The notes under the pieces: model-generated
The model's database searches: none
What the model saw: only the letters and a program-made list of their open reading frames with translations
Told to the model about the DNA's origin: nothing
IMG/VR virus record: IMGVR_UViG_3300000596_000002
Span: 1 to 22,873 of that record
Reading direction: 5' to 3' (one strand)
Source: a virus
DNA: 22,873 nucleotides
Translations under genes and position numbers: made by a program
In this document: positions 554 to 18,655 of the stretch, one piece after another
Layout: each line of letters starts with the position of its first letter
Position numbering within the stretch: the first letter of the stretch is position 1

Positions 554-2050
554 CTCTTCAGCCGCCCCGCCGCGATCGAAGTTGCGGGCGAGCGCAGTTT
601 GTGTCTCGATCTCTCGCTCCTGTTTCTTCTGCGCCTCTTCTTCGAGCCGAGCCTTCTCGATCTTAGGATCGAAGTCGTCAGGTAACTTGCCGCCGGCGCT
701 GAACACATCCCACATTGTTTCGACGCTGTATTGACCCTGCGCCACGGCGCTGCTCCAGGCCGTCATCTCTTCTGGCGTCAGCTCCTGCGCGTCGAGCGTT
801 GAGCCGACCTCGACGTTGCCGCCTGTCGTGGCTGTGGGAGTGCGATATTGAACGTGGAATCTGAGCGCCAGCTCTACGGCATCTTTGAGTGAGCGCGCCC
901 AGGTGGCGAGATCGCTGGATTCCTCGATCTGATCGCCCTTTTCCTCCGTGGCCGTGATCGGGCCGCCTGTACGCTTGACGAGCAGGGAGAGGCCCATAAT
1001 GGACATTCGTTCTTCGAGGGTTTTCAGATCCTCAGCCGCGCCGGCGAGCGCTGCGCCCGTCGTTTCCGCATACCAGACGTCACCCTCGACCGCCACATCG
1101 AAGATGGTATAAGGCCCAATGGTCGTGATCGGCTTATTGGCGTCGGCGCCTTTACGGCATAGAAGCGGGCGGGATGCGATATGTAGATAGATCGAGAAGT
1201 CGGAATATTTCTGATAGTGGGTGATGTTCGTATAGGCCAGATCGATTAGAGGCGGGTGTGAATGAAGGATGCCGCATTTACGCGAGTAAACGATGGCGAC
1301 CGGGATCTCGCTCAGACTCGTTGGCCCGCCCGGATTGTCCGGATCGGGCTGGATGCTCGTCTGTAAGTTCTCGCCCTTTACTTCCTTGTAGAGCTCCCAA
1401 CTGCCAGGGCGCAGGACGCGATAGCGCGTCACTTCCTTTTCGCCATACTCGCCGTCAGGTTCTTTCGAGCACTCCTTGAATACGACGAGCGCGAGCCGCG
1501 TCTGCCCGTTAACGACCTCGGTGCGCCAGTTGATGATTTGATCGGCGCAGTAGCTCACCCAATACGGCCGTCGCTTGGCTGTCTTCTCATCCGCCCGCGT
1601 CGCCCCCTCGGGCATTGCGGGCGGCATATCAACCAGAATCGCCGCATGGCCGTCGCGGACGGCGTTCATGAATACTTCCTTGCAAAACACCGTCCCGTGC
1701 GTCCCGGCGTTGTCTATGTTCTCCCATTCGCCCTCGACCGCTGCGCCTTCGCCTTCCGCTTCCCTGCCCCGGATCTGCTCGGGAACGTTGTCCGAGAGCT
1801 TCGGATCGTTGCGAAAAACCATCCCGACCAGACCGGCGAGCGTCAGATCCACGGCGTTGAAGAAGATCGCGCGGTTCAGGCGGTAGTTGTAGGGATCGGG
1901 CTGCTCGGCAGGCTCTTTCGGCAGGTATGCGGCGCCCTTGCCGCGGAGCGCGGGCGTCCCGGCGCAGGTATCGGCCATGATCTGCCAGGACCATTTCATC
2001 GCCTCATAGGCGGCGCAGCAATAATTGGGTTGATTCTTGTCTCCGGCCAC
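551..2050 (-). CDS. Phage portal protein (DUF4055 type)
   Basis: This 499-residue protein forms the dodecameric ring at the capsid vertex through which DNA is packaged and to which the tail attaches. The N-terminal region (GAAYLPKEP, then NYRLNRAIFFNAVDLTLAGLVGMVF at about 40-80), the central Y..ADQIINWR segment and the later LAYTNITHYQKYSDF segment resemble DUF4055 portal proteins from memory. Length fits the family. The C-terminus is charged and helical (KIEKARLEEEAQKKQERE). The start is a GTG with an in-frame TAG a few codons upstream; no good ribosome site is seen, and ATGs near residues 18 and 25 are alternatives. The gene is separated from the terminase large subunit by an oppositely oriented small-gene cassette, which is unusual for this otherwise compact operon. 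Confidence 0.88.
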   Translation of the reverse strand: MAGDKNQPNYCCAAYEAMKWSWQIMADTCAGTPALRGKGAAYLPKEPAEQPDPYNYRLNRAIFFNAVDLTLAGLVGMVFRNDPKLSDNVPEQIRGREAEGEGAAVEGEWENIDNAGTHGTVFCKEVFMNAVRDGHAAILVDMPPAMPEGATRADEKTAKRRPYWVSYCADQIINWRTEVVNGQTRLALVVFKECSKEPDGEYGEKEVTRYRVLRPGSWELYKEVKGENLQTSIQPDPDNPGGPTSLSEIPVAIVYSRKCGILHSHPPLIDLAYTNITHYQKYSDFSIYLHIASRPLLCRKGADANKPITTIGPYTIFDVAVEGDVWYAETTGAALAGAAEDLKTLEERMSIMGLSLLVKRTGGPITATEEKGDQIEESSDLATWARSLKDAVELALRFHVQYRTPTATTGGNVEVGSTLDAQELTPEEMTAWSSAVAQGQYSVETMWDVFSAGGKLPDDFDPKIEKARLEEEAQKKQEREIETQTALARNFDRGGAAEE

Positions 2051-2102
2051 GGCGGGAGAATACGCAGGCTAAAGATTTATTTTGCGAGAGTGAAGATAGT
2101 TA

Positions 2103-2131
2103 TTGACATCCCCCGCTAGAGGGGGTATACT
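2103..2131 (+). promoter_or_regulatory. Near-consensus sigma70 promoter with inverted repeat in the spacer
   Basis: A perfect -35 TTGACA (2103-2108) and a TATACT -10 (2126-2131) are separated by exactly 17 bp. The spacer is almost entirely an inverted repeat, CCCCC-GCTAGA-GGGGG (2110-2125), centred on CTAG. This is the best promoter seen in the window. It points rightwards to the plus-strand cassette whose first start codon is at 2177. The spacer palindrome is a plausible operator. Confidence 0.85.
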
Positions 2132-2176
2132 GCATCTGTCAGTTGGAATTGAAAACAAAACAACACCGGAGGCGAT

Positions 2177-2362
2177 ATGAAAATGACAATCAGCACGACA
2201 GAAGTTAAAGCAGGCGATTACGTGGTGGGCTACAGACAGACAGTTGCCAGCGTTAAGAGTTGGGAGTTTGGTAAGGCTGGTGAGATACAGATTACGTTCG
2301 AGGATGGCTCGAATATTGTGACGATGAAAAGCTGGGAGATGACGGTAATAAGAGGCGAGTAG
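2177..2362 (+). CDS. Small beta-rich protein, first gene of the plus-strand cassette
   Basis: A 61-residue protein of unknown function. The start ATG is preceded by CCGGAGG at good spacing and lies about 40 nt downstream of the promoter's expected transcription start. Alternating hydrophobic and polar residues (VKAGDYVVGY, VASVKSWEF, EIQITFEDGSNIVTM, WEMTVIRGE) suggest a small five-strand beta barrel, like many short phage proteins built on a G-D-x-V core. There are no cysteines, signal peptide or membrane segment. It is oriented against the flanking terminase and portal genes. An antisense frame here (2069-2494, minus) lacks a comparable start and is treated as a shadow. Confidence 0.8.
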   Translation: MKMTISTTEVKAGDYVVGYRQTVASVKSWEFGKAGEIQITFEDGSNIVTMKSWEMTVIRGE

Positions 2363-2376
2363 AAACCGAAACGCAA

Positions 2377-2392
2377 GGGGCGGCATCGCCCC
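2377..2392 (+). other. GC-rich hairpin after the first plus-strand gene
   Basis: GGGGCG (2377-2382), loop GCAT, CGCCCC (2387-2392): a perfect 6-bp stem 14 nt after the stop codon of the preceding gene. No U-tract follows, so it may attenuate or stabilise transcripts rather than act as a standard terminator. Confidence 0.45.
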
Positions 2393-2431
2393 ACTTCCCC
2401 GCTGTTTGACAATCAGTAAATCCCAGAGGCT

Positions 2432-2566
2432 GTGACGCCGCCCAGGTACGTCAGTGATAGTTCTGAGAACGATGTACGGTATGTCTGCGAACAATACCAG
2501 CCGTGGGATTTACCGATTGCCAAGCAGCAAACATCAACGCAGATAACCGGAGGACGAAATGATTGA
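2432..2566 (+). CDS. Possible 44-residue ORF in the plus-strand cassette (GTG start)
   Basis: A GTG-initiated frame on the plus strand encodes 44 residues (VTPPRYVSDSSENDV near the start, ending TGGRND). Its stop overlaps the start of the next gene by 8 nt, the kind of coupling seen throughout this genome, and it fills an otherwise empty gap. A short AGAGG lies only 2 nt upstream of the GTG, which is too close for a typical ribosome site. No family was recognised. Treat it as a candidate only; the gap could equally be non-coding leader for the downstream gene, which has its own strong ribosome site. Confidence 0.35.
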   Translation: MTPPRYVSDSSENDVRYVCEQYQPWDLPIAKQQTSTQITGGRND

Positions 2567-2753
2567 CCACATGCTACCTAGAGACCTGGACGATATTTAT
2601 GGCCCCGGCGCTGAAAACGCCGATGACGGCATTGATTATGATGCTGTTGATATCGCAGACGGCCCTACCGCTTGCGACCACTGCGGTAGCCTGATGCCCG
2701 CAAGCCATCTGCGCGAGGGGCTGTGTTGTGACTGCGATGGGGATAAACAATGA
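2559..2753 (+). CDS. Small acidic zinc-ribbon protein
   Basis: A 64-residue protein with CCGGAGGA upstream of its ATG. The first half is strongly acidic (DLDDIYG, ENADDGIDYDAVDIAD). The second half holds two CxxC pairs, C39-x2-C42 (CDHC) and C56/C57-x-C59 (CCDC), spaced like a minimal zinc ribbon. Such knuckles bind nucleic acid or protein partners; the acidic N-terminus could act as a DNA mimic or an RNA polymerase contact, but that is speculation. The stop overlaps the start of the next gene (ATGA). Second or third gene of the opposed cassette. Confidence 0.8.
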   Translation: MIDHMLPRDLDDIYGPGAENADDGIDYDAVDIADGPTACDHCGSLMPASHLREGLCCDCDGDKQ

Positions 2754-3037
2754 CCAACCCCGAACGCCAACAATCACTGGCCGACGCGCGCAATGCCGTC
2801 TGGTTTCTACGGCTCTACATTGAGTCGCAGATTGTGGACGAGCGGATACGCGCTGAAATCGGCTGCCTGCTCGACGAGTTCGAGCGCCTTGATGCAGGTG
2901 AGCAGAAGCGCAACGCGGCCGGACGCAAAAGCGGGATACTCGGCAAGCAATACGGCGCGCTCGGCGCTGAACACGGCGCGAAGGGCGGATGGCCGAAGGG
3001 TAGAAAAAGGAAGGCTCAACGGAAGAACTCGCCTTGA
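2750..3037 (+). CDS. Small protein with helical N-terminus and basic glycine-rich tail
   Basis: A 95-residue protein translationally coupled (ATGA) to the zinc-ribbon gene. Residues 5-50 look helical (SLADARNAVWFLRLYIESQI, then IRAEIGCLLDEFERLD). The C-terminal 40 residues are basic and glycine-rich with a GR/KGR pattern (AAGRKSGILGKQYG, GGWPKGRKRK) reminiscent of AT-hook-like or RNA-binding tails. Nucleic acid binding is an inference from composition. Its last 22 nt overlap, tail to tail, the end of the terminase large-subunit gene, so read-through from this cassette would be antisense to the terminase gene. Confidence 0.78.
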   Translation: MTNPERQQSLADARNAVWFLRLYIESQIVDERIRAEIGCLLDEFERLDAGEQKRNAAGRKSGILGKQYGALGAEHGAKGGWPKGRKRKAQRKNSP

Positions 3038-4506
3038 CTGAACTGCCCGCCCAGCGCTAATTCGTTGAAAGCGTCTGACGCGCTATCCACTTGATCCATA
3101 TACTTGCCGCGTGGAAACTGGCGCAGTTCTTCAATAAACGGCTTATTCCACGCGGCTTTCAATAGCTTTACATTACCAACGTTCACCTGCGCCGAGAATG
3201 CGAACGCGCGCGTCTCCTTCGATCCTGACGCGGGTTCAGTCTTCACGTTGTAGCCTGCCAGCATTCGCACGAGCGATGTCGCCTGCTTCTTCCCTGCCTG
3301 GCCAGGATCTTGCGGAATGTGGATGCGGACGCTCGTCCCATCAATGCGCGCCGTGCTGATCAATTGCGTCTCAACGTCATCACTCGACCATTGCCCCCGG
3401 GCGACATCCAGCACATACCAAATACCTTTCGGATCTCTGCCGATCTTGACACCTGACGTGAATGCGCCCCCGCCCTCTGTGCTGGCCAGATCCCAGCCAC
3501 GGCAAAGCCTGAGATCCGCCGGCGTGGCTTCGATGATCTCTAGCTTCGACACCTTGAAGAATTCGCCTTCGCGCGCTGTGGGGCGTTGCTGAAAGAGCGC
3601 GTCGAAGAAGTATTCCCCGATCCGCTGCTTGATCTTATTCAGCTTCTCGATCGGCCGTCGCTCGGGACACAGCGCCTCGCCTGTCTGCCGCCAATCGGCC
3701 TCAACCGTGCAAGACGTCGGGAATTGCTCGGGCTCCGGATCTTCGGCAATGGCCGGCATGTTCACGATATGCCAGCGTTCGCGCTCGTCTTCTTCTTCGG
3801 CCTGGCGCTCTTCCTCGATCAGCCAGCCGGCTAGATCGTCCTCGTGCCAGCGGGTTTGCACTACGATCATGGCGCCGTTGGGATCGGTATCGCTCCAGGG
3901 TTCTTCGCGCGTGTACCATGTCGAATTCCACCAATCTTGTAGTTTGGCCCGGATCACTTCCGACGCCGCTTCTTCGGCATTCTTGATGGGATCGTCCACG
4001 ACGAGCAAATGACCGCCCTTACCCGTTGCAGGACCACCGGCGCCGCAGGCCCACAATCCGCCGCCTTCGCCAGTCTCCCAATGCTGGACGCCTGCCGCGT
4101 CTGACTTGATGGCGTTGCCTGCGAGGCGGAAGTTATCGCGCGCGTTTCTGGACAGAGTGTTGGCGAGATCAGCGGAGTAAGAACTGAGACCGACCCAGCG
4201 ATCGGGGTAGCGATGGAGGAAGTATGCGGTGAATAGGCGACTGATCGTTTCGCTTTTGCCGTGGCGGGGTGGTGTGAAGACGAGAAGGCGCTTGATCTCG
4301 CCATTGGCGACGCGCTGCAGGATGTCGGCAAGTACGGCGCAATGGCGGTATTGCTGATACCGAGGGGAAACGCGGGCGATGAAGTCGCGGAAGCTGACGG
4401 GCGACGATTGCCTCTGCTCGCGCTTGCGGCGCCGCAGTTCCAGCTCAGCCTTTGCCCTCAGTATCAACGATTGCTTCGAGTTCCTGATCTGAGAGCTTCG
4501 ATACAT
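3016..4506 (-). CDS. terL: Terminase large subunit (packaging ATPase and nuclease)
   Basis: A 496-residue packaging motor that cuts concatemeric DNA and pumps it into the prohead. The ATPase domain shows Walker A PPRHGKSE (79-86), Walker B LLVVDDP (167-173, D171/D172) and a coupling segment VVQTRWHEDDL (215-225). The RNase-H-fold nuclease domain shows the acidic residues expected: D339 in RGWDLAS, D400 in IPQDPGQAGK and D471/D474 in YMDQVDSASDAF. Length is normal and all key motifs are intact. The ATG at 4506 lies inside the small-subunit gene (62-nt overlap), the usual terS-terL arrangement. The 3' end overlaps a convergent plus-strand gene by 22 nt. Confidence 0.96.
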   Translation of the reverse strand: MYRSSQIRNSKQSLILRAKAELELRRRKREQRQSSPVSFRDFIARVSPRYQQYRHCAVLADILQRVANGEIKRLLVFTPPRHGKSETISRLFTAYFLHRYPDRWVGLSSYSADLANTLSRNARDNFRLAGNAIKSDAAGVQHWETGEGGGLWACGAGGPATGKGGHLLVVDDPIKNAEEAASEVIRAKLQDWWNSTWYTREEPWSDTDPNGAMIVVQTRWHEDDLAGWLIEEERQAEEEDERERWHIVNMPAIAEDPEPEQFPTSCTVEADWRQTGEALCPERRPIEKLNKIKQRIGEYFFDALFQQRPTAREGEFFKVSKLEIIEATPADLRLCRGWDLASTEGGGAFTSGVKIGRDPKGIWYVLDVARGQWSSDDVETQLISTARIDGTSVRIHIPQDPGQAGKKQATSLVRMLAGYNVKTEPASGSKETRAFAFSAQVNVGNVKLLKAAWNKPFIEELRQFPRGKYMDQVDSASDAFNELALGGQFSQGEFFR

Positions 4507-4821: not shown

Positions 4822-6075
4822 TTATGGAGCCGCGCGCTCTAACAGTTGCGCCGTTTTGCCAGTCTCAGCCTCCCAGCGGGACAGAATTACGTTGACGTAT
4901 TTCGGCTCGATCTCGATTACGCGCGCTTTGCGATTGGTGCGCTCGCAGGCGATGAGAGTCGTGCCGGAGCCGCCGAAGAAGTCGGCAACTATGTCTTGCG
5001 GGCGCGAGCATTTCTCAATGATATGCCCAATCAACTCAAGCGGCTTTTGCGTTGGATGCGTCCCATCACTGCGCTTATTAATCGGCCACCAATTCAAACA
5101 ATGCTCACCATCTGGATAATTAAATGTCGGCTTGCCGCTCTTACCGAAACATACCAATTCAACCGCGAATGTCCATGTATTTTTAGCCAATGAAGGCATA
5201 GGGTTAGGCTTGCACCACACGCAAAAGCTGGCTTTTGCGTGTGCGTTGTTCATCCATTCGACAATGCCGCCAAATAGGTGATGGGCAGTAAACACATATT
5301 GCCAGCAATCAGCAGCGAGGGCGCCCCTTGACGCTTCCAAGAAGGCGATAGGGTTAAAGTCCCGATCCCATTCTGCGCCCGCCAACTCCTTGAGTGACTT
5401 TGATACGTTCTGCGCATAAACATCTGTTTCGCCTGCGACATTATACGGGGGGTCGGTAACCATCAACGGCGCCTTCCGCCCCGCCATCACCCTTTCGATA
5501 TCCTCTGCGTTCGTGCTATCCCCACATAATACCCGATGCTCGCCGCATTGCCAGATATCGCCATATTCGACCCGCGTCTGCGTCTCTTCCGGCGTCGTGT
5601 CGAAGTCGTCACCGCCTGCGCCGATCGGCTTCTCATCAAGCAAAAGCCCAGCGCCGATCGCCAACTCGTCGAGCATATTATTTATGCGCTCGTCGTCGGT
5701 CTGGACCTGGCGCAATAAGCCGCTCAATGCGTCCTTATCGTAAGTTGCCAGCCCGGTGATCGGATCGTATGCAGCCAGGATCAATCGCTCTTCATCCTCC
5801 GTGACCTCGATCTCGACGAACGGAACGGTCATTGATTCATCAACGCTCAGCGCCTCTTCAATCCTGGCGTGGCCATCGAGCAATTTACCGCTTCGGGCCG
5901 AGACCACGGTAGGCGCAATCCATCCCACGGCATCAAGCGAGCCACGCAAGGCTTCGCGCTGTTTGGCGGGATGGCGCCGGGCGTTCATCTCGTGGGCCAG
6001 GAATTGATTGGCGGGCATCTGGCCGTATTTGACGATGCGATTCGTCCACCATTCCTTTTGTTTCGTCTTCGGCAT
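4822..6075 (-). CDS. ParB-like domain fused to a DNA methyltransferase
   Basis: A 417-residue protein with two parts. Residues about 15-140 form a ParB/Srx-like domain (LAHEMNARRHPAKQREALRGSL, then LLDGHARIEEAL at 65-76). Residues about 170-417 form an adenine or N4-cytosine methyltransferase: DPPY at 208-211 (catalytic), THPTQKP at 339-345 and the SAM-binding DFFGGSGTT at 365-373. The order DPPY before FGGSG fits the beta class. Such fusions are common in phages and prophages next to packaging genes and may protect phage DNA from restriction or mark packaging or replication sites. No cognate restriction enzyme is visible. The ATG is preceded by AGGAAA at about 8 nt. Target sequence cannot be predicted from sequence alone. 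Confidence 0.93.
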   Translation of the reverse strand: MPKTKQKEWWTNRIVKYGQMPANQFLAHEMNARRHPAKQREALRGSLDAVGWIAPTVVSARSGKLLDGHARIEEALSVDESMTVPFVEIEVTEDEERLILAAYDPITGLATYDKDALSGLLRQVQTDDERINNMLDELAIGAGLLLDEKPIGAGGDDFDTTPEETQTRVEYGDIWQCGEHRVLCGDSTNAEDIERVMAGRKAPLMVTDPPYNVAGETDVYAQNVSKSLKELAGAEWDRDFNPIAFLEASRGALAADCWQYVFTAHHLFGGIVEWMNNAHAKASFCVWCKPNPMPSLAKNTWTFAVELVCFGKSGKPTFNYPDGEHCLNWWPINKRSDGTHPTQKPLELIGHIIEKCSRPQDIVADFFGGSGTTLIACERTNRKARVIEIEPKYVNVILSRWEAETGKTAQLLERAAP

Positions 6076-13969: not shown

Positions 13970-14902
13970 TCAGGAATCTATTTCTCGGTAGCCGGTCCTG
14001 GCCTGGCCACGGGCGCCGGGAGCGCGCTCCTTCTCGAATGATTCCAGCTTGCCGACCTCGGTGAGACGGTTCAGCCAGACGATCACGTAGATCCGGTCGC
14101 GCTTCATCCGGGCGGCGATCATGTCGGCTTCGTCGTAGCCCTGGCGGATCAGTTCGAAGATCGTTATTTCGACGGATTGCGGCGGCATGGAGAGTTCGTA
14201 TTGAACTTCTTCCTGATAGCCGTTGATCAGGTTTTGCAGGCGGGGCGCGACGCTGATCATCTTGCGAAAGGCCGCCTGTAATTCGGCCCAGGCGGCGACT
14301 ACCTCGGGCTCGTCGCACAGCGCGGCGATCGTTGAATCGAGTGGGGGTGTCTTCTGTTCCTTTGTCATTCGCCAAGCGTCCCTCGTTGAAAAGAATGGGT
14401 TTTTCGCCTTTTCTTGAGCGAACCTCTCAATAGTAGCGTGCGGATCATCGGTATACAGCGCGGCGCGAAAAAAGTCCTTGTCGTCGAGATCCTCCAGCGA
14501 TCCATCTGATTCGTTATTTCTTTTAGCGCTAAAAGAATTAAAGAATGTTTTATGAATCGAGGCGTTCTGATAGATCAGATTGGAACTGACGCCGATCTCT
14601 GCGGCATGCTTCTTCACGGCGGCGTCAATCCCTTTGCCTTCCGTGTCCTTCATTCCCCGACCTCGGCGCTGTGACTCTCGATTTAAAATCTCGGCATCGC
14701 AAGCGATTTCGATCCGCCAGGACACACGGCCGAACGCTCGCGCCTGCATTCGGATTTCGAGAACTTCCATATCGTCCATTTTCGGCAGTTCCGAGATTAT
14801 CTGATCCGCCGTAGATTCCACCTTGTTGAAAAACTGGATCGCCGACGTGGCGATCGGTGAGGGGTTCGACATTGTAGTTACTCCAGTTGTTGTTAATTGC
14901 AT
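13970..14902 (-). CDS. Putative DNA-binding regulator with HTH and winged-helix regions
   Basis: A 310-residue protein from the ATG at 14902 (GGAG 5 nt upstream); an ATG at 14872 with GGAG at 8 nt is an alternative. A longer frame upstream runs through the structured leader and is not believed. Residues about 92-119 (IDAAVKKHAAEIGVSSNLIYQNASIHKTF) fit a helix-turn-helix. Residues about 243-290 (VEITIFELIRQGYDEADMIAARM, then VIVWLNRLTEVGKLESF) fit a winged helix. No family was recognised. It stands alone between the terminated replication block and the lysis and virion block, the place for a late-gene regulator. A 20-bp perfect palindrome lies within its own coding sequence (14518-14537), possibly its binding site. 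Confidence 0.8.
   Translation of the reverse strand: MQLTTTGVTTMSNPSPIATSAIQFFNKVESTADQIISELPKMDDMEVLEIRMQARAFGRVSWRIEIACDAEILNRESQRRGRGMKDTEGKGIDAAVKKHAAEIGVSSNLIYQNASIHKTFFNSFSAKRNNESDGSLEDLDDKDFFRAALYTDDPHATIERFAQEKAKNPFFSTRDAWRMTKEQKTPPLDSTIAALCDEPEVVAAWAELQAAFRKMISVAPRLQNLINGYQEEVQYELSMPPQSVEITIFELIRQGYDEADMIAARMKRDRIYVIVWLNRLTEVGKLESFEKERAPGARGQARTGYREIDS
14518..14537. repeat. 20-bp perfect palindrome inside the regulator gene
   Basis: TTCTTTTAGCGCTAAAAGAA reads identically on both strands, with A/T-rich arms around AGCGCT. It encodes part of the SFSAKR segment of the putative regulator. Perfect 20-bp symmetry is rarely random and may be a dimer binding site. Confidence 0.85.
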
Positions 14903-14925
14903 AAATTCTCCGGTTATTAGGTTAT

Positions 14926-14986
14926 GCGCGCTCCGGGAATTGCACCCGGCGTCGGGGAAATGACGCCCTGACTGCACTAAGCGCGC
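14926..14986 (-). ncRNA. tRNA-like structured element in the regulator leader
   Basis: On the minus strand this 61-nt stretch can fold with a 7-bp acceptor-like stem (GCGCGCT, 14986-14980, with AGCGCGC, 14932-14926). Directly stacked on it is a 5-bp T-arm-like hairpin CCGGG-TGCAATT-CCCGG (14949-14933), whose loop matches a T loop except for G in place of T55. There is also a CGTC/GACG hairpin in the anticodon position with an 8-nt loop. The D region (TAGTGCAGTCAGG) resembles a D arm in sequence but has lost its 3' half. No CCA follows. It is too short for a normal tRNA: either a tRNA-derived remnant or a tRNA mimic in the 5' leader of the gene starting at 14902. Confidence 0.35.
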
Positions 14987-15001
14987 GGCGCCAGCGTGAG
15001 T

Positions 15002-15025
15002 AAAAACCCTGCGAGCGTGGCAGGG
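15002..15025 (-). terminator. Rho-independent terminator ending the replication block
   Basis: On the minus strand CCCTGC (15025-15020), loop CACGCTC, GCAGGG (15012-15007) is followed directly by TTTTT (15006-15002). It starts 19 nt after the stop codon at 15044. An outer complementary pair (CTCACGC/GCGTGAG, 15032-15038 and 14994-15000) encloses the whole hairpin. Confidence 0.85.
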
Positions 15026-15043
15026 GGAAACCCTCACGCGATC

Positions 15044-15511: not shown

Positions 15512-15666
15512 TTCTTCACCTTCTCCTTCCGCAGCCAAATCCCTAGAGGCGCGTGCTTTCGCACCTTCTTCGGCACGCTCGCGTCAATGCGGCGGCGGGC
15601 GGCGCGGAGACGGGCGTAGATGGCCCTAAAATCGTCGTGGTTGGGTTTTTCCGTGTTATCGCTCAC
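15508..15666 (-). CDS. Small basic hypothetical protein (GTG start)
   Basis: A 52-residue protein. The GTG at 15666 is chosen because it overlaps the stop of the DUF1064 gene (GTGA) and has GGAGGT 6 nt upstream; longer readings of the frame lack this. The C-terminal half is strongly basic (IYARLRAARRRIDASVPKKVRKH, ending RKEKVKK), suggesting nucleic acid contact, though no motif is recognised. Both ends are coupled to neighbours by 4-nt overlaps. Confidence 0.75.
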   Translation of the reverse strand: MSDNTEKPNHDDFRAIYARLRAARRRIDASVPKKVRKHAPLGIWLRKEKVKK

Positions 15667-16082
15667 GCTAGCACCTCCTGCCATATCCATTGCCCCCCAG
15701 AGTATTTGTAGAGAAAAAAGCGGCAGCGCTTGTACTTGTTCGCCGCGACTTTCAGAGACTTCAACGCGTCTTCCCAAACGTGCGCCCCCTTCACCTCGTA
15801 GAAGGTCAGTTTGTCGCCCTTCCAGGTTGGGAAGTCAGGGCGATACCTGAGACCGTTCGCCAGGCGCAGGGTGATCGATTCATGCTCCCCGATCTCGTCA
15901 ATTTCGCCGGCCGCCAACATTGGCTCTAAGAATGTCAGTTTGAATCGGGTTTCTGTCTTGTTCATACCGCGGCTCGACTGTCTAATAATCTGAGTCGCCC
16001 CGCCGTGCGGCATCGGCTCGGCTACCGCCTTGGCGCTGCGGCGCGCTATAAAGTCGGTGTAGATGTCGTCTTGCCAGCTCAT
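15663..16082 (-). CDS. DUF1064-type PD-(D/E)XK nuclease-like protein
   Basis: A 139-residue protein with the signature of phage DUF1064 proteins: NKTE (41-44), LRLANGLRYRPDF (72-84) and FYEVKG (94-99). The catalytic set E44, D83, E96 and K98 is intact, as in Holliday-junction-resolvase-like and Cas4-like folds, so endonuclease activity on branched or single-stranded DNA is plausible. The N-terminal 35 residues are an extra, weakly conserved-looking extension. GAGGAG lies about 8 nt upstream of the ATG. It follows the primase-helicase gene after a 164-bp gap carrying iteron-like repeats. Confidence 0.87.
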   Translation of the reverse strand: MSWQDDIYTDFIARRSAKAVAEPMPHGGATQIIRQSSRGMNKTETRFKLTFLEPMLAAGEIDEIGEHESITLRLANGLRYRPDFPTWKGDKLTFYEVKGAHVWEDALKSLKVAANKYKRCRFFLYKYSGGQWIWQEVLA

Positions 16083-16198: not shown

Positions 16199-16301
16199 TA
16201 GGACAGCTAGGACAGTTAGGACACGAATACAAGTATCTATTTACCTCTACTCACGTGAGTAATAACCTGTACTTCTGTCCTGACTGTCCTGACTGTCCTG
16301 A
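16199..16301. repeat. Opposed iteron-like repeats around a palindrome (candidate origin or control site)
   Basis: Three 9-bp direct repeats (TAGGACAGC, TAGGACAGT, TAGGACACG; 16199-16225) face three exact copies of the reverse-complement form CTGTCCTGA (16275-16301). They share the core AGGACAG. Between the two sets, close to the centre of symmetry, lies the perfect palindrome TACTCACGTGAGTA (16248-16261). The right set is inside the primase-helicase coding sequence, where it encodes a QDSQDSQD tail; the left set is in the non-coding gap. The layout suits a replication initiator site; a long imperfect hairpin in the transcript is an alternative role. Confidence 0.75.
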
Positions 16302-18655
16302 TAGGTCAAAATGACACCAAAATAATAGACATTTCCGCTCTCTTTTCTCTTCACAAAACCACGCTCTGACATCGCATTTCCGAACCTCGTTTGATTGAGA
16401 ACGTACTCGCCGTTGTCTTCACACCATCGGCAATAAGCCTTATAAATCTGTCCTGCGACTGCCCCGCGCTGCGACTTATCCGGCATCTGCTCGAGTCTCT
16501 GCTCGATGAACATCCCGAGGACATCGGAATCCTTGCGGTACTGCTCCGTGGCCTCCCTGACCTGCTGAGGTGGCGTCAACCCCTCTGTCTTCCAAAGCCG
16601 ATAGCCTTCGATCGCCCAATTGAGTATCCCCGGCAACTCGAGCATCAGCTTGGTCTCGAGAAACTTGTCAGCGATCTTCAAGTTGTCGCGCTTCGCCTTC
16701 TCCGTGTCTTTCTCGAACTGTACGAGAAATGGGATCATCAGCGGGCGCCGCCATATGCCCTCATCCGTCCCGCGGATCACCGGCTTATGATTGGCCGCGA
16801 GCCACAGCTTGAAGACCGGGGTAAACGTGATGGAATGCTCGTGTTTGTAGGAGGCCGTTACCGGATCGCCGCCCGTAATCTGTTTGATCAGAGCCTCGGA
16901 TAGCCTCTTTGACTCCTCGGTCTCGATCGCCGTGATCAGCCGGGCGCCGCACAGCCTCGCCAGGTCTTCGTTATGGCCGCCGCTCGAGCGATTCTTGGCC
17001 GTAAAGACCTCCATCTGTGCGTGAGTGGCGTATTCGCCTATTAGGCGGCTCAGGACGTTGATAAACGTCGTCTTGCCGTTCCTACCTACCCCGTAGAGCA
17101 AAAAGAACACCTGCTCCACTGACAGCCCCGACAACGAGTACCCTACGGCCTTCTGGATGAACCGAATGAGCGCTTTGTCCTTGTTGAAAACCCCGATCAG
17201 GAATCGAAGCCATTTAGGACACTTGGCGTCCTTCTGATACTCCACCTTTGAAAGTTTCATGCAGAGGCGCGCGGGATCGTGCGGCAGCAACTCACCCGTC
17301 GCCAGGTCTACGGTCCCGTTTGAGACGTTGAACAGCTCGGGATTAGCGTCGAAACTCTCGAACTCGATCCTCACCTCGGCCCGGATCAACGTCAGGATGG
17401 CGTTGCGGCGCTCTGGCTTCTGAGAGGCGACATAGTGTTTAAACGCCTTCTCCTGCGCCTCCAAGGTAATCGCGTCGATATGCCGTAGCCCTTGAACGAC
17501 TTTATTCGCCCGGTCCTCGACGATCCCTTGATCGTCGCTCCATCTCTTCCCGTCAAAAGACATGAATTTCTTGCGCGCGTAAACGTATTTGGTTGTCTGC
17601 CTGTAAGCGTTCAGGAATCGCGCGGCGTTGCCGTGATCGGCTAGCAGGTCTTCATCATCGAATACGGTGTCGATCTCCTCGGACTGAATCTCGCCGGGCC
17701 ACTCTTCGACTTCGGGCGGTGTTTCCGGTTTAACCACGCGAAACTGCAGCCGCGGCTTCTCGGGCGCCCGCCGTGGCTCCCTCATCCCCGCATCGATGCC
17801 GCTCCTGATCGTGTTGCGGATCTCCGACTTGTCCAGCCCTGCCCCCACCGCCGCGCGCTCGAGCGCTGATTCCACATCCGATCTGTACAGCACGCCGCCG
17901 CCGACCAACTGCCCGAGCGCGAATGCCGACTTATTGAGCTGCGCGTTCCGTTCGCCCGTCGACGCCAGTAAAACTGCGTTGACTTCCGCCTGCAGCGCTG
18001 CCTGACCATAAGCATCGGTATTTACGGGCTTGGTATTCCTTGCCGGCGGCGGTTGCTGCTCATCCTCTTCAAGTTTGATTGCACGCCAGTCGAGCAACTC
18101 ACCTTCGTGGATCTCATAGCGGTAGCGTGCCCCCTCTTCCGGGACCGCCGGCGTGTAGAACATCCGACTAGCATCCTTGGCCTGCTCGTCAATCCTCCCT
18201 TGGGCGACTTCTGCGGCCCATCGCCAGAGCTTCGGGAACTCGCCCGCCGGGATCGGCTCCAACAATGGGATGATCACCCGGAATCGCTCCTCAGCGTCCG
18301 GGTTGCTCTCGGTCTCGCGGTAACTCGAATGCGTGGTGTAGGCGGCGAAAGATAATCCGAACATTCGCCAGACCTCGAGGTCGATGTCAAAGTCGGCTCC
18401 GTGGTCGTAGTCAAGGACCAGTTCAGAAATACATTTGACGTTCTCTTTCTTCCTCGCCGGCGGATCGAACAGCGCCGGCGCGAATAGCGGTCCGTCTTTC
18501 TCGGCGCGGATCTGAGGCTTGGCTATTCGCTCGCAAATCTCCCCCCACGAGCGCTCCACACGCTTCGGCGTCTTGTCGAATTTGTTCTTAAAGAGCGACA
18601 GGCAGAAGACGCTGGGGCTTTTCTTATGGCCGTTTGTTGTGAGGTCAGGTGTCAT
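16247..18655 (-). CDS. Primase-helicase (AEP-type primase plus SF3 helicase)
   Basis: An 802-residue replication protein. The N-terminal region (about 70-185) fits an archaeo-eukaryotic-type primase: LVLDYDHG with D82 and D84, YTTHSS with H109, RFRVIIPL, and KDASRMFYTPA with D161 and R164. A linker follows, then the D5_N-type region with the typical LFNVSNGTVDLATGELLPHDP (441-461). The SF3 helicase carries Walker A GVGRNGKT (522-529), acidic Walker B ITAIETEE (574-581), motif C KLWLAANHKP (616-625) and the arginine pair in DEGIWRRP (631-638). All motors look intact. The C-terminus ends in a QDSQDSQD repeat encoded by iteron-like DNA. The start overlaps the preceding stop (TAATG). It would prime and unwind phage DNA. 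Confidence 0.93.
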   Translation of the reverse strand: MTPDLTTNGHKKSPSVFCLSLFKNKFDKTPKRVERSWGEICERIAKPQIRAEKDGPLFAPALFDPPARKKENVKCISELVLDYDHGADFDIDLEVWRMFGLSFAAYTTHSSYRETESNPDAEERFRVIIPLLEPIPAGEFPKLWRWAAEVAQGRIDEQAKDASRMFYTPAVPEEGARYRYEIHEGELLDWRAIKLEEDEQQPPPARNTKPVNTDAYGQAALQAEVNAVLLASTGERNAQLNKSAFALGQLVGGGVLYRSDVESALERAAVGAGLDKSEIRNTIRSGIDAGMREPRRAPEKPRLQFRVVKPETPPEVEEWPGEIQSEEIDTVFDDEDLLADHGNAARFLNAYRQTTKYVYARKKFMSFDGKRWSDDQGIVEDRANKVVQGLRHIDAITLEAQEKAFKHYVASQKPERRNAILTLIRAEVRIEFESFDANPELFNVSNGTVDLATGELLPHDPARLCMKLSKVEYQKDAKCPKWLRFLIGVFNKDKALIRFIQKAVGYSLSGLSVEQVFFLLYGVGRNGKTTFINVLSRLIGEYATHAQMEVFTAKNRSSGGHNEDLARLCGARLITAIETEESKRLSEALIKQITGGDPVTASYKHEHSITFTPVFKLWLAANHKPVIRGTDEGIWRRPLMIPFLVQFEKDTEKAKRDNLKIADKFLETKLMLELPGILNWAIEGYRLWKTEGLTPPQQVREATEQYRKDSDVLGMFIEQRLEQMPDKSQRGAVAGQIYKAYCRWCEDNGEYVLNQTRFGNAMSERGFVKRKESGNVYYFGVILTYQDSQDSQDRSTGYYSRE

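Follow-up and report, generated by a model that had tools for sequence, protein, structure and literature searches.

The phage DNA analysed here (the window, 22,873 nucleotides) carries a 103-bp element at positions 16199-16301 that is very probably the replication origin of the phage and would be bound by the product of the adjacent primase-helicase gene. The element is situated at the 3' end of this gene and consists of two opposed sets of 9-mers separated by an AT-rich spacer. It is taken as an origin because of the annotated origin of Streptococcus phage Sfi21, the binding of iterons by the SaPI Rep and Cch2 proteins, and the cis element of plasmid pRN1. As judged from sequence, the layout recurs at the 3' ends of homologous genes in many phages and plasmids, while the repeats themselves differ. 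This recurrence, together with the Sfi21 origin in the equivalent place, supports the origin assignment proposed in an earlier, sequence-only reading of the window. A testable origin is thereby supplied for an unclassified phage, and a pattern defined in DNA alone can find origins of a widespread class.

The element and the adjacent proposed initiator gene

The contig belongs to a tailed phage (portal, terminase). Re-reading of the sequence bore out the coordinates of the opposed triple 9-mers and their description in the sequence-only reading, as well as the placement of the right-hand set in coding sequence, where it gives the protein its QDSQDSQD tail (YQDSQDSQDRSTGYYSRE). The gene-proximal copies are exact; the third distal copy reads AGGACAC, with one mismatch (Table 1). 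Opposed 3+3 6-mers, 3+2 7-mers and 3+3 5-mers were each found in none of 200 dinucleotide shuffles of the whole window, and by the same repeat criteria the element is the sole such array in it. The AT content of the spacer is in the top 0.5% of the 50-bp stretches of the window.

The central palindrome, on which the sequence-only reading had laid emphasis, is present close to the centre of the element (16250). The emphasis is not justified: chance alone would give about 1.4 palindromes of 14 bp in a sequence of this size and the window contains a longer one, so the palindrome alone is weak evidence. The longest perfect palindrome of the window, TTCTTTTAGCGCTAAAAGAA, measures 20 bp (14518-14537) and lies within the ORF at 13970-15037(-). 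A cumulative GC-skew minimum, which had been suggested as a check, was absent from the locus when the window was analysed; this result is uninformative because the window is a contig with nearly all genes on one strand.

Table 1. Features of the candidate origin and of the genes next to it
Feature	Position	Strand	Remarks
Gene-proximal iteron set	16275..16301	-	3 exact 9-mers, CTGTCCTGA, starting at 16275, 16284 and 16293; AGGACAG core on the primase coding strand; 9-bp period; lies in the CDS, at its 3' end
Gene-distal iteron set, opposite orientation	16199..16225	+	TAGGACAGC (start 16199), TAGGACAGT (16208), TAGGACACG (16217)
Putative degenerate 4th copy, AGTACAG (+ strand letters CTGTACT)	16267..16273	-	8 bp inside the gene-proximal set; suggested by sequence
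Putative degenerate 4th copy, AATACAA	16226..16232	+	8 bp inside the distal set; suggested by sequence
AT-rich spacer, 50 bp, presumed unwinding region	16225..16274		66% AT, 44% in the window
14-bp palindrome TACTCACGTGAGTA in the spacer	16248..16261		Overlaps the stop codon (16247-16249)
D5_N/DUF5906/Pox_D5-type primase-helicase, 802 aa, proposed initiator	16247..18655	-	
Predicted C-terminal winged helix, proposed iteron reader	16307..16456	-	About residues 734-783
Next gene downstream	15663..16082	-	Weak match to Holliday junction resolvases (phrog_190)

The primase-helicase matches the D5_N, DUF5906 and Pox_D5 families (Pox_D5 at residues 708-773) and phage DNA primase families. Its relatives of solved structure, as identified by sequence, are the SaPI5 primase-helicase (7ola) and the viral primase C962R. 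The predicted model of residues 333-802 (pLDDT 92) has a fold that matches the D5-type hexameric helicases and 7ola. The predicted winged helix consists of helices followed by a two-strand wing, and the repeat-coded tail that comes after it is predicted to be disordered. Among the other genes of the contig, the one at 4822-6075(-), located among the head genes, has a ParB-like N-terminus and a DNA methyltransferase C-terminus (phrog_498, phrog_8071).

No relative above about 45% identity was found in the collections searched, so the element is not trackable over short distances. The primase-helicase protein found one relative in the viral contigs, at 37% identity; the search with two neighbouring genes yielded no close relatives, and blastn against phages returned only a 173-bp exonuclease match.

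Recurrence of the layout behind homologous genes

The loci compared come from viral and genome contigs and from named phages. Of the 134 loci, 93 have opposed exact 7-mers, with at least two copies per strand, where the gene ends; the corresponding figures are 4.8% for shuffled sequences and 10 of 134 for coding controls. A strict test was also applied, in which redundancy was removed (<80% identity) and both exact repeats and tandem spacing on both strands were demanded. Strict opposed tandem arrays were found in 32 of the 89 non-redundant loci, versus 7 of 4450 shuffled sequences and 1 of 315 windows elsewhere in these loci. The remaining 57 loci fail this test, but clear cases such as Lactobacillus phage EV3 are missed because exact repeats are demanded, and the true share of loci with arrays is higher than the strict test shows. 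Along the loci the array score peaks at the gene end only. A one-mismatch 8-mer score was noisy (53% of shuffles reach 5) and was retained for this positional peak alone. No evident array was seen behind some of the homologues, namely those of BIP-1, Floof, Enterococcus IME_EF3 and vir555.

The same plan, with repeats of their own, is found in EV3 (GGTGAGCAGTT), Listeria phage PSA (GGTGGATAGTT), Bacillus phage phi105 (TGTTACT), Acidithiobacillus AcaML1 (TCTGACGGG, three copies facing two), Enterococcus 4995_2 (GGTAGACAGTT) and a Methanoculleus virus. Same-strand spacings cluster at 8-12 and 17-21 bp, and only 2 of 91 fall at 13-16 bp. Such distances correspond to one or two turns of the helix, as for subunits that share a face of the DNA. 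The spacers between the facing sets measure 53-87 bp (median 72) and are richer in AT than the loci (0.64 vs 0.51, p=2e-10). Polarity is fixed to a large extent: the gene-proximal set is G-rich on the sense strand in 32 of 38 decided cases (32:6, p=2e-5). Pyrimidines tend to prevail in the left part of the spacers and purines in the right part (p=3e-4), and the words TTTCC, CTATA, ATAGA and GGAAA are enriched in them. The spacer of the window contains TAGAGG, also a word enriched in the relatives' spacers, and is without a long alternating run. A palindrome beyond shuffles (p<0.05) occurs in just 9% of the spacers, which rules out the central palindrome as a general component.

A search of related genomes for the same array after the primase gene had been proposed in the sequence-only reading. 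A pattern taken from the window alone, GGACA-N4-GGACA-N(42-72)-TGTCC-N4-TGTCC, was run blind over viral contigs and matched at least 119 stretches. Among the 119 matches listed, the fetched DNA of 17 contains a primase-helicase gene, and in 14 of these 17 the array lies within -200 to +400 of the 3' end of the gene, where 1.1 would be expected (P=5e-15); the 14 include a few near-identical contigs, so that the independent number is about 10, and the P value ignores this kinship. Most of the other 102 listed stretches lack a visible primase-helicase gene and are probably chance or unrelated matches. A one-way tandem scan with AGGACAGNNAGGACAGNNAGGACA was rejected as a diagnostic: it returned 31 viral contigs (L185-L215) with hardly any facing copies and with a primase-helicase in none of the fetched DNA. 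Tandem copies alone are therefore not diagnostic, and these one-way 9-bp AGGACAG arrays are probably coding repeats.

The placement of one set inside the gene raises the question whether DNA or peptide is conserved. In contigs L304, L334 and L257 a set of three repeats is opposed by one of two or three, at a 9-bp period. L252 and L300 likewise have their first set inside the gene, where its translation gives other peptides (...GDSGTGYGTGY and ...RTVRTDRTE, respectively) rather than QDSQDSQD. In L304 both sets of the array (1459-1550) are inside the primase-helicase ORF, 1222-4194(-), and further coding sequence comes after them. Most loci with in-gene copies have spacings of 8, 10 or 11 bp, so in most relatives these copies are not peptide repeats. 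These observations indicate that the repeats are conserved as DNA and that the QDS tail is a by-product. Selection on DNA had been suggested in the sequence-only reading, with retention of the tail and scrambling of the repeats named as the refuting outcome; in L252 and L300 the opposite is found, the repeats being kept and the tail lost.

The similarity of repeat motifs tracks the similarity of the initiators (permutation p=0.0005). When the winged helix was compared with the rest of the protein, it showed no extra association with motif similarity (partial p=0.14), and for this reason the reader domain is not pinned by covariation. On the initiator tree the GGACA motif is clustered (5 changes versus 11.5 in shuffles), in part because some of the rows had been chosen by motif; several rows are on long branches.

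Known origins and competing explanations

The SaPI and Sfi21 origins are known examples of the kind of origin to which the element very probably belongs. The window shows several features of these gene-adjacent iteron origins: short tandem repeats where the proposed initiator gene ends; two facing sets around an AT-rich core, as also in Sfi21; an initiator with a D5_N/SF3-type helicase homologous to SaPI5 Rep; and a DNA-binding winged-helix C-terminus, as predicted from the structural model (pLDDT 92) and the Pox_D5 match. In the Sfi21 record (NC_000872) a 302-bp region after the primase gene is annotated as the origin of replication. The sequence of this region comprises two copies of TTAGTTAC, an AT-rich core and two copies of GTAACTAA, and the Sfi21 primase is a homologue of the primase-helicase of the window (E=9e-12). 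Both have, where a homologous primase-helicase gene ends, opposed tandem repeats with an AT-rich core between them; Sfi21 differs in its 8-bp period, its TTAGTTAC motif, its core of about 71 bp, the larger region with extra copies and the distant relationship of its initiator.

The C-terminal domain of the SaPI Rep and Cch2 proteins binds iterons directly 3' of the genes that encode them, and two hexamers may be involved (PMC7581432). Origin activity is likewise described in the literature on these relatives. The likeness to the window lies in iterons directly downstream of a helicase or primase-helicase gene (for Cch2, at a putative SCCmec origin) and in recognition by the C-terminal domain (PMC7581432); the SaPI5 primase-helicase 7ola matches the protein of the window by both sequence and fold. 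These elements, however, are satellite islands and cassettes, not tailed phages, and have other iterons (AAGTG for Cch2). The alpha protein of phage P4 is, as cited in PMC4234260, a primase-helicase-initiator whose winged helix binds the ori and crr repeats. Compared by that citation alone, it resembles the proposed initiator in its winged helix that binds origin repeats and differs in having a Toprim primase.

In the Sulfolobales plasmid pRN1, 100 bp located 3' of the P4-type primase-helicase gene are necessary for replication, are sufficient together with the replication operon, and function when relocated (PMC4234260). Gel shifts and footprints showed no specific binding (PMC4234260). The pRN1 family resembles the window in its symmetrical cis element of about 100 bp 3' of a P4-type primase-helicase gene and in the 9-bp-spaced GGACA of the pRN1 arms (GGAC in the pRN2 arms). 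It differs in being archaeal, in the perfect inverted-repeat arms, in its description as a stem-loop and in the lack of specific binding in vitro. The arms of pRN1 (L174, about 5083-5182) contain the 9-bp-spaced direct repeats TGTCCATAG and TGTCCAACT (TGTCC..), and those of pHEN7 (L180) contain GTCACCACT and GTCACAACT (GTCAC..), likewise 9-bp-spaced. The pRN stem may be a symmetrical facing-iteron array; as each arm has two short repeats, the idea is a lead rather than a result. BIP-1 has been reported with a pRN-like stem-loop (PMC4234260), and inspection of its region for iterons revealed none; pSSVx was left out of the comparison.

The functional feature of the origin could instead be a long hairpin (a cruciform or a single-stranded stem-loop), as proposed for pRN1, with the repeats inside each arm incidental. 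The mirror register of its two sets allows the element of the window to fold, and a 107-nt stretch folds far better than shuffles (z=-5.8 as DNA, z=-8.3 as RNA). The arms of Sfi21, pRN1, pRN2 and pHEN7 are highly complementary, and an arm mutation in pRN1 blocked replication unless symmetry was restored in the other arm (PMC4234260). A stem, however, has no need of direct repeats within each arm, and the pRN1 and pHEN7 arms themselves carry them. In 16 of the 32 strict arrays of the relatives a single stem register never accommodates two repeat pairs, yet the facing orientation and the helical spacing are retained. Since half of the strict arrays cannot form one stem and there is no terminator, the hairpin is probably not the conserved feature, and this explanation is considered quite unlikely. 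The long transcript hairpin that the sequence-only reading gave as its main alternative can thus be folded from the window sequence but does not seem to be what is conserved in the relatives.

It is most improbable that the element is a transcription terminator or another RNA structure at the junction of the primase-helicase gene with its downstream neighbour, despite the strong RNA hairpin at the gene end. An intrinsic terminator combines a G+C-rich stem, a short loop and a T-run; there is no T-run and no terminator-like site at the element, and a 50-bp AT-rich loop and repeats duplicated within the arms are atypical. An Rfam search of the element gave no match, and the arrays of the relatives vary in position with respect to the stop codon, to the point of lying wholly in the ORF (L304). 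A repressor operator or a ParB-like partition site in place of an origin is as improbable as a terminator. Facing repeats are typical of operators and centromeres, and a ParB-like domain is encoded in the window, in the methyltransferase fusion described above. That gene, however, is far from the element, the array accompanies the primase-helicase gene in phages and plasmids where the neighbouring genes differ, and the equivalent place is annotated as an origin in Sfi21.

Proposed mechanism and a possible common grammar

Initiation at the candidate origin would begin with the winged-helix C-terminus of the primase-helicase, which is proposed to bind both facing iteron sets. Copies about one helical turn apart would bring several subunits onto the same side of the helix. 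With the two sets opposed, two helicase rings would be positioned head to head, flanking the AT-rich spacer. The spacer would then be melted and primed, and forks would leave in both directions.

It is quite possible, though somewhat short of probable, that most replicons with D5/P4-type primase-helicases (phages, satellites, and bacterial and archaeal plasmids) share one origin grammar. Its components would be opposed iterons spaced by one helical turn; a motif that is specific to the initiator and constant in polarity; an AT-rich core of 50-85 bp, often centred on an alternating tract (CGCGCG/TATATA); and TTTCC/CTATA and TATAG/GGAAA shoulders. The pRN 'stem-loop' would be the symmetrical case. 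If this is true, origins could be read off genomes and many phage, satellite and plasmid origins annotated by sequence, and cross-reactivity between elements would be predictable from the motif. The choice between iterons and a stem-loop at pRN1-type origins, which is open in the literature, would be testable with arm mutants.

An alternating purine-pyrimidine run beyond shuffles (p<0.05) is present in about a quarter of 53 spacers. Long alternating tracts are located near the centre of the spacers of L006, L069, L140, L165, L167 and L302. They are of the CGCGCG/CACACG type (up to 30 nt) in G+C-rich replicons and of the TATATA type in A+T-rich ones. One might guess at a role in strand opening, as Z-DNA or as a gyrase site.
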